DNA of 64,000 bases from an uncultured Phycisphaerales bacterium (GTDB lineage Bacteria > Planctomycetota > Phycisphaerae > Sedimentisphaerales > Anaerohalosphaeraceae): positions 1 through 64,000 of the forward strand of contig CALMLO010000037.1 in NCBI GenBank assembly GCA_937868095.1. The letters are read 5' to 3'. Positions 51,952-56,540 of this stretch are shown here, piece after piece. Numbering within the stretch: the stretch's first letter is position 1; every line of letters begins with the position of its first letter. The translations under genes were made by a program, and so were the position numbers. The notes beneath the pieces were generated by a model. The model worked only from the letters and a program-made list of their open reading frames with translations, made no database searches and was not told the DNA's origin.

Positions 51952-52023
51952 ACCCCTGCGCCCTCAAAATAGTTTTCTTGCTCTTGCAACGGAAAGCCCT
52001 TAAATGTATAGTATATCTTCCAG

Positions 52024-52097
<74 letters not shown>

Positions 52098-52144
52098 GTT
52101 TCCCTCTTTTTACCTTGAATGTTCACTGCCTGCCGAATTTCTTT

Positions 52145-53791
52145 CTATCCCATGTAGCGGTTGGTAATCGGCATCCGCCAATCTATGCCGAACGCACAGG
52201 GGGTAATTTTAATACCAGGTGGAGACTGCCGCCGCTTGTATTCGCTGCGGGCTATCATCTTCAGCGTCCGCTCCACATCCTTCGAGGGAAGGCCGCGAGC
52301 CGTCAGTTCCTCTCGGCTGAGCTTTTCCTCAAGAAAGCCCTTCAAAATCTGATCCAGAATCGGATAGTCCGGCAGGGAATCGCTGTCTTTTTGATTCGGC
52401 CTCAGTTCAGCCGAAGGGGTCCGCTCGAGCACGCTCTGCGGAATGACTTTCCACCCTTTCATTCGATTGTAATAGTCACAAAGCTGATAGACCATCGTTT
52501 TAGGCACATCTTTTAGAACAGCAAGGCCGCCGGCTGTGTCTCCATATAAAGTCGAATAGCCGACGGCTGTCTCACTTTTGTTGCCTGTAGTCAGGACCAG
52601 ATACCCAAAATGATTGGAGAGGGTCATCAGAAGTGTGCCGCGGATACGGGCCTGAAGGTTTTCATAAGCCACACCCCGCTCATCCCACCCTTCAATCGCT
52701 TTCAAGTTTCTGCTGAAGGCCGACAGGATATCCTCAATCGGCAGCGTATGCAGCTCGATGGAAAGATTGGAAGCAACCGTTTGGGCATCCAGGCAGGTTT
52801 CAGGAGCATTAAAACGGGAAGGCATCGCAAGTCCGACTACGTTGTCTGCACCCAATGCCTCAACGGCAATCGCCGCCGTTAAAGCTGAATCCACTCCACC
52901 GCTGATTCCAAGCAGGACCTTCGAAAAGTTGTTTTTGCGAACATAATCCGCTGTGCCCAGAACCAGCGCCCGCCAAACCTCCGCCATCGGCTCTTCAGCA
53001 CCCTGTTTCCAGGGAGCGGCACAGGGACTCGTGATTTTCAGTGCGGCGTCACCCTGCTTGACACAGTCGATAATCAGCAAATCTTCCTGAAAGCCGGGGG
53101 CCTCAAACAACGTCTGTCCATTGGCATCGACAACCAGGCAGCGGCCGTCGAAGACCAGTTCATCCTGGCCGCCGACAAGATTGCAGTAAAACAACGGACA
53201 GCGAAAATGAAGGGCACATTTCGCCAGCATACTCCTGCGTTCATCAATCTTACCATGGTAAAAAGGAGAAGCCGCTATGCAGACAATAGCATCAAAGGTG
53301 CCTCGGATTCCCCCCCAAAAAGCATCCAGCTGGGACAAATCCGACGGCTCCTGGCCAATTGTCAATGCCAGAGATACCGGTCCCGCTTCAATGACAACAG
53401 CGTCCAAACCAGATTGAAAATAACGTTTTTCGTCAAATATACTTATAGGGGGGATGAATCTCTTTCGGTAATTTTGCCGGATTTTTCCCTGCTGAATAAC
53501 CGCAGCGGCGTTAAAGAGGCGGCCTTCTTCCATCTGCGGCCAGCCGATAACCAGAACCATCTGCTGAATCTGCTGTGCCAGCCGGCTGAGGGCAGAGTGA
53601 TTGTCCTGAAGAAAGCAAGGCCGATGCAGCAAATCTTCCGGGGGGCAGCCGCAAAGAAACAATTCAGGCAATATCAGCACGTCCGCATTTCTGGCCAGCG
53701 ATTTCTCTGCGAAAGCCAAGGCCTTGCGGAGATTGCCTTCCAGGTCTCCAACCACAGCGTTGGCCTGTCCCAAGGCGATTCGAACCGGCAT
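52145..53791 (-). CDS. nadE: NAD synthetase, glutamine-dependent type with altered amidotransferase site
   Basis: A 548-residue enzyme that makes NAD from deamido-NAD. Residues 1-250 are a nitrilase-fold glutaminase; residues 270-548 are the synthetase with ATP-loop SGGVDS (297-302), TLYGDTAGGLAVLKDVPKT and the C-terminal PITNRYMG. In the glutaminase domain Glu43 (LPEL) and Lys110 (YRK) are in place, but the residue 36 positions after the lysine, which is the cysteine nucleophile in relatives (ICED), is Gly146 here (TIGQEP). It may therefore need free ammonia. Cys171 lies nearby but in the following strand. The start ATG has AAAGGAAAG upstream. It lies downstream of glnN on the same strand. 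Confidence 0.9.
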   Translation of the reverse strand: MPVRIALGQANAVVGDLEGNLRKALAFAEKSLARNADVLILPELFLCGCPPEDLLHRPCFLQDNHSALSRLAQQIQQMVLVIGWPQMEEGRLFNAAAVIQQGKIRQNYRKRFIPPISIFDEKRYFQSGLDAVVIEAGPVSLALTIGQEPSDLSQLDAFWGGIRGTFDAIVCIAASPFYHGKIDERRSMLAKCALHFRCPLFYCNLVGGQDELVFDGRCLVVDANGQTLFEAPGFQEDLLIIDCVKQGDAALKITSPCAAPWKQGAEEPMAEVWRALVLGTADYVRKNNFSKVLLGISGGVDSALTAAIAVEALGADNVVGLAMPSRFNAPETCLDAQTVASNLSIELHTLPIEDILSAFSRNLKAIEGWDERGVAYENLQARIRGTLLMTLSNHFGYLVLTTGNKSETAVGYSTLYGDTAGGLAVLKDVPKTMVYQLCDYYNRMKGWKVIPQSVLERTPSAELRPNQKDSDSLPDYPILDQILKGFLEEKLSREELTARGLPSKDVERTLKMIARSEYKRRQSPPGIKITPCAFGIDWRMPITNRYMG

Positions 53792-54032
53792 AGAGTCTCT
53801 TGCTTTCCTTTCGATTTAATTTGATTTTTGCCGGCAGTTGAACGCTGGGGCTGCGTTTTGGCCTGCCGCGATTGCCTGCCCAACTCCCCTTCCATACACC
53901 AGCACCCTCATATTTTCGCAATCATTTCCTGCCTTGAAGGAGGGGCAAACCGACCTTCTCCCAAAACATTTTAGTCCGCCATCGCTTTAGAAAACGGTAG
54001 AGTTCTTTACTTCAGTAAAATTTCTTTTTTTA

Positions 54033-56126
54033 TTAGAGAAAAAGCATTTCGGCATAAGTAGGCAAAGGCCACACTTCAGCATCCACAAGCATTTCCAGGG
54101 CATCAGCGGCTTTTCGAACAGAAGCCATTGCGGGAAGAACTTCCTCTCGAGACTTTTTGGCCTCCTCAAAAGTGGACGGGGCTTTGGAAATATCGCAGAC
54201 CTTCCCTTCCAATTCGCTGATTGCCTCTCTCAGTTCATCGATAAGTTTGCAAACAATTTCCATCTGTTTGCCGAAAGAAGCGGCCTTAACGCCAACCGCC
54301 CCCAGAGAGGCCGCTGCGGCCGCCAGTTTTCCAGCATAGTTCTGACAAACCGGCAGGATTTGCCTTTTGGCAATATGCAAGGTTGTAGCGGCCTCGATGT
54401 GAACTGTCTGAATGTAATTTTCAAGAAAGATTTCAACGCGGGCTTCCTGTTCAGCTTGACTGAGCACCTGATTGCGTTCAAAAACAGCGATATTCTCCGG
54501 TTCAAGAATGGTTGCAATCGACTCCACAGCCGACGGAATATTAGGCAAACCGCGACGCGCTGCCTCCTGAATCCAGTCGGGGGAATAATTATCTCCATTA
54601 AAGACAATCCGAGCGTGCTCGGAGGCGATTTTTTGAAGGATTTTCTGCACAGTTGTCTTTACATCTGCACTTGCTTCGAGAGCGTCGGCTATTTCCCGCA
54701 GAATATCGGCCACAATCGTATTGATCACAAAAGCCGGACCAGCACAGGACTGACTGGAACCGACCATTCGAAACTCAAATTTATTGCCGGTAAAAGCAAA
54801 GGGGGAGGTACGGTTGCGGTCCGTGCAGTCCCTCGGCAAAGGAGGCAGCAAAGATGTCCCCAGCCGAAGATATCCGTTTTGCCAAGACTTTCTCCCCCCG
54901 CCAGCCGCCAATTGCTCAAAAACCTCCGTCAGCTGCTCACCCAGAAAGACCGACACAATCGCCGGAGGGGCCTCATTGGCTCCCAGACGATGTTCATTAC
55001 CCGGATTAGCAACGCTGGCACGAAGGAGTTTGGCATACTTATCCACTGCCCGGACTACGGCACACAAAAAGACCAAAAAAATCATGTTATCATGAGGGGT
55101 TTGGCCCGGATCGAGCAGGTTGATGCCGGTATCCGTCATAATTGACCAGTTGTTGTGCTTGCCGGAGCCGTTCACGCCGATAAACGGCTTTTCATGAAGA
55201 AGACAGACAAAGCCATGCCGCTGAGCTGTTTTCTGAAGTGCCTCCATTATCAGCTGATTATGGTCAGTGGCCACATTAGCCGTGGTAAAGACAGGGGCCA
55301 GCTCATACTGAGCCGGTGCCGTTTCATGATGCTGCGTCTTTGCTGAAACCCCCAATTTCCACAACTCTGTATTCACTTCCTCCATAAAGGAGGCAATCCG
55401 GTCGCGCAGAGTACCAAAATAATGGTCTTCCATTTCCTGTCCGCGAGGAGAAGGTGCCCCCAAAAGCGTCCGTCCGGTCAGCATCAAATCCAGCCGTTTT
55501 TCAAAAAAACGCCGATCAATCAGAAAATATTCTTGTTCAGGTCCCAGCGTCGCTATCACGCGATTCACGTCTGTCTTGCCAAGCGCCTTCAGAACCCGTA
55601 CGGCCTGTCGATTGAGGGCATCCATCGAACGAAGAAGCGGCGTTTTTTTATCAAGGGCCTGGCCGTTATACGAGCAAAAAGCACAGGGAATATACAGCGT
55701 TTTATTTTTAACAAAAACAGAGGAGGAACAGTCCCATGCTGTATAGCCGCGTGCCTCGAACGTAGCCCGAAGCCCCCCCGACGGGAATGAGGAGGCATCC
55801 GGTTCCCCTTTCATCAGTTCCTTGCCGCCGAATTCAATCATCGGCTTGCCTTCGAGGGTCGCAGAGATAAAAGAATCATGTTTTTCCGCCGTCAGGCCGG
55901 TCATCGGCTGAAACCAATGGCAGTAATGGGTTGCCCCCTTCTCCAGTGCCCAGTCCTTCATTGCGTTTGCAATCACATCAGCAACCGCAAGGGTCAATTC
56001 GACATCACCCCTCCGAATCTCCTGAAACCGTATATAAATGTCTTTCGGAAGCCGCTCTCTCATCAAGGCGTCATTGAAGACATTGGTTCCGAAAATTTCC
56101 AGCATTTTACAACTCAATGTTTCCAT
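54033..56126 (-). CDS. glnN: Glutamine synthetase type III
   Basis: A 697-residue cytosolic enzyme that joins ammonia and glutamate. It is of the large GSIII class: GPEQEYFLIDRR, HHETAPAQYELAP, GKHNNWS with the ATP-binding and metal residues, and the NRTSPFAFTGNKFEFRMVGSS segment near 460. The C-terminal 200 residues include the GSIII-specific helical region. A ribosome-binding site AAGGA precedes the ATG by nine bases. It is followed on the strand, after 240 bases, by nadE. Confidence 0.93.
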   Translation of the reverse strand: METLSCKMLEIFGTNVFNDALMRERLPKDIYIRFQEIRRGDVELTLAVADVIANAMKDWALEKGATHYCHWFQPMTGLTAEKHDSFISATLEGKPMIEFGGKELMKGEPDASSFPSGGLRATFEARGYTAWDCSSSVFVKNKTLYIPCAFCSYNGQALDKKTPLLRSMDALNRQAVRVLKALGKTDVNRVIATLGPEQEYFLIDRRFFEKRLDLMLTGRTLLGAPSPRGQEMEDHYFGTLRDRIASFMEEVNTELWKLGVSAKTQHHETAPAQYELAPVFTTANVATDHNQLIMEALQKTAQRHGFVCLLHEKPFIGVNGSGKHNNWSIMTDTGINLLDPGQTPHDNMIFLVFLCAVVRAVDKYAKLLRASVANPGNEHRLGANEAPPAIVSVFLGEQLTEVFEQLAAGGGRKSWQNGYLRLGTSLLPPLPRDCTDRNRTSPFAFTGNKFEFRMVGSSQSCAGPAFVINTIVADILREIADALEASADVKTTVQKILQKIASEHARIVFNGDNYSPDWIQEAARRGLPNIPSAVESIATILEPENIAVFERNQVLSQAEQEARVEIFLENYIQTVHIEAATTLHIAKRQILPVCQNYAGKLAAAAASLGAVGVKAASFGKQMEIVCKLIDELREAISELEGKVCDISKAPSTFEEAKKSREEVLPAMASVRKAADALEMLVDAEVWPLPTYAEMLFL

Positions 56127-56540
56127 GGATAAATCCTTTATCTATACAAAAGACATATCTGCTCTTTTTCTTTCTTTGCTTTGTCTCGAAACAAAGCATA
56201 CCTCTTTTTTTCTTGTCCGTCAAAAAAGGATTTGTCGGTCCTGTTTAACCGATGACCTCATACCTGCGCTGACCCATTCAAGGCTGAATACATTCCACCT
56301 TGCCCAAAATAAAAATCTTCCTATCTTCAATCTGGCATGTATGGACTGCTTCAATAATACCTTCTGCTCGCACCGCAGCAAAATATTATCATTTATGAGG
56401 AAGTACTTTTAGATACAAAATTTATTCAATACAATGCATATCTTATATCTGCATATTTGGTTCTATCTTAACTATTTAACTCCCAACCAAACAAAACAGA
56501 ATTTTCCGGAAAGTCCGCCTTCTTATCTCCAAAAAATCGG
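56127..56540. other. Intergenic region upstream of glnN
   Basis: About 410 bases without a supported gene. It holds the glnN leader, with a perfect 8-bp hairpin TGCTTTGT/ACAAAGCA at 56177-56198 (loop six bases). On the plus strand a T run follows it at a distance. I looked for a glutamine riboswitch and for a sigma54 promoter before glnN and saw neither clearly. Confidence 0.5.

Follow-up and report, generated by a model that had tools for sequence, protein, structure and literature searches.

The window, the whole stretch of 64,000 nucleotides of an uncultured Phycisphaerales bacterium that was analysed here, carries a two-domain NAD synthetase gene (nadE) in which the catalytic cysteine of the glutaminase domain is replaced by glycine. 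From sequence comparisons we consider it probable, at about 0.75, that in this lineage a glutamine-dependent NadE is no longer active as a glutaminase and uses free ammonia to convert NaAD into NAD. That a natural, predicted glutaminase-dead two-domain NadE is real, in one genome that is also without the ammonium-scavenging module, is well supported, and its dependence on ammonia is highly plausible. The gene, its domains and its catalytic positions are these:

52145-53791, minus strand: nadE, two-domain NAD synthetase of 548 aa (NF010588, 640 bits, E 2.8e-192)
53018-53791, minus strand: nitrilase-type glutaminase domain, aa 1-258, fold complete and active site degenerate (PF00795 and structure model)
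52148-53005, minus strand: NAD synthetase domain of aa 263-548, in which the SGGVDS P-loop and the other signatures are preserved (PF02540, 248 bits)
53663-53665, minus strand: codon 43, catalytic Glu, kept (alignment with relatives)
53462-53464, minus strand: codon 110, catalytic Lys, kept (alignment with relatives)
53354-53356, minus strand: codon 146, GGC (Gly), at the catalytic Cys position (alignment with relatives)

Gly146 aligns with the catalytic cysteine in the ICED motif of 4f4h and 5kha. Among 209 aligned NadE proteins with a readable site, a set taken from the order of the window bacterium and from other phyla in which some loci are redundant, Glu, Lys and Cys are present in 207, and the two with Gly are the window protein and a protein that we call P0002 (locus L221). 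The original prediction had placed glycine at exactly the nucleophile position and had Glu43 and Lys110 retained, and the alignment confirms both; of the Cys-Glu-Lys triad of NadE-Gln only the cysteine is missing. The five other genomes of the genus that were examined all have TICED or TVCED, and Gly146 is absent from them. The comparison with other planctomycetes that had been proposed finds Cys kept throughout the order-wide set apart from the window protein and P0002, and 30 relatives of P0002 keep it as well, so a clade-wide loss in planctomycetes is rejected. A literature search restricted to open-access papers found no natural Cys-less NadE, although others might exist.

The replacements in the glutaminase domain are not limited to the nucleophile. 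Residues of M. tuberculosis NadE were mapped onto the window protein by motif offset from Glu52, Lys121 and Cys176, using the roles of the M. tuberculosis and human glutamine-site residues given in PMC6946656, and with the alignment this identified four further changed positions:

53645-53647, minus strand: codon 49, TGC (Cys); Tyr in 207 of 208 relatives; equivalent to M. tuberculosis Tyr58
53444-53446, minus strand: codon 116, ATA (Ile); usually Tyr; equivalent to M. tuberculosis Tyr127, a substrate-contacting residue of the YRE loop
53351-53353, minus strand: codon 147, CAG (Gln); Glu in most relatives; equivalent to M. tuberculosis Glu177
53342-53344, minus strand: codon 150, TCG (Ser); Trp in 207 of 209 relatives; equivalent to M. 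tuberculosis Phe180 and human Trp179, the glutamine tunnel gate

Five of the 11 glutamine-site positions are thus changed (Tyr49>Cys, Tyr116>Ile, Cys146>Gly, Glu147>Gln, Trp150>Ser), while Glu43, Lys110, Phe119, Glu121, Ser175 and Pro176 are kept. No other member of the set has five changes, the next being P0002 and one Cys-containing sequence with four each. The glutamine pocket formed by Tyr58, Tyr127, Glu177 and Phe180/Trp179 is represented here by Cys49, Ile116, Gln147 and Ser150. The positions differ in weight: Tyr49, Cys146 and Trp150 are each missing in only one or two relatives, whereas some relatives that have Cys also differ at those of Glu147 and Tyr116. Joint loss of Cys and Tyr is confined within the set to the window protein and P0002, and the loss of the otherwise invariant Tyr49 in just these two Cys-less proteins is what death of the glutamine site would predict. 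Two earlier statements therefore stand in part: a single base change (TGC to GGC) accounts for codon 146 and not for the site, 5/11 of which differs, and the domain is full length in having a complete fold, with pocket and loop (Tyr49, Tyr116, Glu147, Trp150) also rewritten.

P0002 is the second NadE of a member of the same family (G083; L221:204-1796, contig C423) and has Gly at position 146 together with Tyr49>Thr, Tyr116>Gly and Phe119>Ser. Its contig has a GC content of 0.65, like that of the contig of the other, intact NadE of this genome (L132). While both P0002 and the window protein have Gly for Cys and are without Tyr49 and Tyr116, they are only 38% identical, P0002 is a paralogue beside an intact NadE, and its motif still has Glu and Trp; Cys is present in the nearest relatives of P0002, whose loss of the Cys and Tyr residues is independent of that in the window protein. 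In a further genome (L223; G138:C566:900-3900) the glutaminase and synthetase parts of NadE lie about 840 bp apart in one frame of 871 codons, the gap being possibly an inserted segment or an assembly fault.

The window protein has the fused nitrilase-type and NAD synthetase domains of NadE-Gln, and not the single-domain architecture of ammonia-dependent NadE, since a nitrilase-fold domain of about 258 aa is retained; what it has in common with the ammonia-dependent class, as far as sequence can tell, is an intact synthetase domain without a working glutaminase. It matches the dimeric glutamine-dependent enzymes (PRK13981/NF010588; 4f4h of Burkholderia thailandensis, 5kha of Acinetobacter baumannii) in architecture, length and fold, with 35-40% identity in structural alignment and the synthetase signatures intact, and differs from them in the change of Cys to Gly and in the replaced equivalents of Tyr58, Tyr127, Glu177 and Phe180/Trp179. 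Its predicted structure (mean pLDDT 84.8, pTM 0.87; built from 15 sequences, with residues 117-119 in the loop beside the pocket of low confidence) shows the nitrilase fold to be complete and aligns with 3n05, 4f4h and 5kha across almost its whole length (Z 33-36). The single-domain enzymes of the E. coli, H. pylori and M. jannaschii type use free ammonia, as is proposed here, but have no glutaminase domain, where the window protein retains one that is probably dead. The M. tuberculosis C176A variant (3sdb, 3seq, 3sez, 3szg) likewise combines a removed nucleophile with a kept fold; it is an engineered single change, whereas the present case is natural and several pocket residues are lost. Glutamine-dependent NadE enzymes also accept free ammonia (PMC6946656, PMC3376133).

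A profile search found this nadE to be the sole NAD synthetase gene of the genome, which is a single assembly in 69 contigs (99.59% complete, 0.33% contaminated). The PF02540 search for a second, intact NadE returned none in the genome, the three other matches being weak and partial (25-30 bits), of which the one in C3 overlaps the GuaA frame. As the only copy, this NadE would have to perform the last, amidating step if the organism carries it out.

The neighbourhood of the gene points to a wider change in nitrogen metabolism:

54033-56126, minus strand: glnN, glutamine synthetase type III, directly upstream of nadE (GSIII_N, Gln-synt_C; 81-82% identity to the G030, G011 and G016 copies)
53792-54032, minus strand: glnN-nadE intergenic region, 241 bp, the site of gltB-gltD in congeners; remnant not found
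51952-52144, minus strand: junction of nadE and a sulfotransferase gene, the site of carB-carA in congener G011; remnant not found
56192-56382, minus strand: glnK (PII) pseudogene upstream of glnN (45 C-terminal codons, 53% identity, with a stop)

The glutamine synthetase gene that had been noticed directly upstream is thus of type III and on the same strand. Three congeners (G030, G011 and G016) have nadE within a cluster of nitrogen genes, which in G030 has the order sigma-54 activator, porin-like protein, amtB, glnK, amtB, glnK, glnN, gltB, gltD, nadE, carB, carA; G056 agrees over the part seen. Further families of the order share the gltB-gltD-nadE-carB-carA block (L036, L039), which is therefore likely to be ancestral. 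In the window glnN is followed by nadE and then by the sulfotransferase gene that in G011 comes after carA, so that within a conserved gene order gltBD is absent from one junction and carBA from a second; no remnant of either above chance was found at these junctions. The glnK remnant stands where congeners have an intact glnK, and its similarity (68% DNA identity) continues into the glnK-glnN spacer. Both amtB genes, glnK, gltBD and carBA are gone from the cluster, leaving glnN-nadE. Whole-genome searches found no glutamate synthase (GltB), no CarA and no AmtB, each of which is present in four congeners of 98-99% completeness. In Azospirillum, PII relieves the feedback inhibition of NadE (PMC7196632). 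There are other genomes in which glnN adjoins nadE, with Cys kept.

We propose that the habitat is probably rich in ammonia, as the gene losses suggest, so that AmtB, PII, GOGAT and the channelling of glutamine would be dispensable. High-affinity ammonium uptake, the GS-GOGAT cycle and glutamine channelling would no longer pay, and the module would have been deleted or pseudogenised, the glutaminase site decaying after this loss until glutamine was presumably no longer hydrolysed. Ammonia could then reach the synthetase site from solution, either directly or via the old tunnel, and the nitrilase domain would persist as a scaffold and dimer interface; glutamate would be supplied by glutamate dehydrogenase, which is present in the genome.

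A first alternative, which is unlikely although it has some claim to attention, accepts a dead glutaminase and an ammonia-dependent NadE but attributes them to random fixation in a fast-evolving lineage, with the loss of the module coincidental. On a common topology both domains do give the window protein a long branch (glutaminase 0.44, synthetase 0.26 substitutions per site), but the protein's deviations at conserved columns (those kept in at least 90% of relatives) concentrate in the glutaminase domain and glutamine site; 11 of 56 such columns deviate in the glutaminase domain, compared with 4 of 100 for the synthetase (Fisher p=0.003). The family medians are one and two deviations respectively, and the three nearest congeners deviate at two glutaminase-domain columns and one synthetase-domain column. 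The gene losses fall in nadE's own cluster, together with the glnK remnant, which coincidence would not lead one to expect, and the nucleophile cysteines of the other amidotransferases checked are intact (TrpG, HisH, GuaA, PyrG, the GlmS/AsnB-like protein and PurF); with these six keeping Cys, genome-wide amidotransferase decay is rejected.

More in favour of random fixation is a genome with the same module loss that keeps Cys. This genome (G069, 89% complete) has the glnN-nadE arrangement of the window (L126:6821-10718), and searches of it for GltB, CarA and AmtB found none at that completeness; its NadE keeps Cys146 and has Tyr116 changed to Ser (LPNY to LSDS). It does not group with the window on the NadE tree, where support for its exact place is only 75, and the gene losses thus look independent. 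Loss of the module alone does not, then, force the change of Cys, and this one genome suggests an order of events in which the module was lost first and the active site later.

Slightly less probable again is that the domain keeps a non-catalytic role, such as ligand sensing, gating or oligomer assembly, and has been remodelled by selection and not decayed. In favour of this, the domain retains its fold and most of its structural columns, and its non-synonymous change runs well below its synonymous change (pN 0.23 and pS 0.63 against G030; 0.105 and 0.675 for the synthetase domain). The domain is thus not free of constraint, which points either to a recent loss or to a role that it still has. 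On the other side, the frame has to stay open whatever the domain does, because the synthetase lies downstream in the same polypeptide, and the known glutamine-contact positions are replaced by unrelated residues.

It is very improbable that the nucleophile has moved, with Cys49 (at the Tyr58 position) or Cys171 hydrolysing glutamine. Cys49 is new and at an active-site position, and Glu43, Lys110 and Glu121 are kept, but the pocket residues Tyr116, Glu147 and Trp150 are replaced too, the Cys-less P0002 has Thr and not Cys at position 49, and we know of no nitrilase-superfamily member that uses this position as nucleophile. Cys171, the alternative raised in the original prediction, is common to congeners and coexists with Cys146 in the closest of them; a displaced nucleophile there is rejected. 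An assembly or sequencing error is hardly credible even for a single assembly in many contigs, given that no fewer than five distinct codons of one frame are altered with no frameshift or stop, and given the consistent gene losses elsewhere in the genome.

Loss of glutaminase activity with a return to ammonia, as we prefer to read these data, would make this a natural two-domain NadE that is back on ammonia with its domain kept, the reverse of the direction drawn in evolutionary accounts, in which ammonia use is ancestral and the glutaminase was gained by subunit recruitment and fusion (PMC3376133). The window protein offers a test of nitrilase-domain roles other than glutamine hydrolysis, and through the tie to the loss of AmtB, PII, GOGAT and CarA the amide donor of essential enzymes is connected with the ammonia of the habitat in a way that can be tested. 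In function the closest parallel is CPS1, a liver urea-cycle enzyme that also needs N-acetylglutamate and is not homologous to NadE in either domain, its glutaminase being of the class I triad type and not a nitrilase and its synthetase unrelated. In human mitochondrial CPS1 the ancestral glutaminase domain is inactive, the catalytic Cys having become Ser294, and free ammonia is used (PMC4655335); an amidotransferase domain is retained but inactivated, as proposed for the window NadE.

A second CarB is kept in the window genome (L313:4025-7285, C42), upstream of the trp operon, with CarA not detected, and it may be a carbamoyl phosphate synthetase that uses ammonia. A tentative suggestion, which we put at somewhat under even odds, is that the nitrogen donor was switched at the level of the lineage, so that both NadE and the CarA-less CarB would run on free ammonia without AmtB, PII, glutamate synthase and CarA; if true, this would be a natural experiment in bacteria comparable to CPS1, and G069 a convergent earlier stage. 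Separately, a stand-alone class-I amidotransferase-like protein of 239 aa, not found in the window genome, is encoded in four congeners (L265:1369-2088 in G016, and counterparts).
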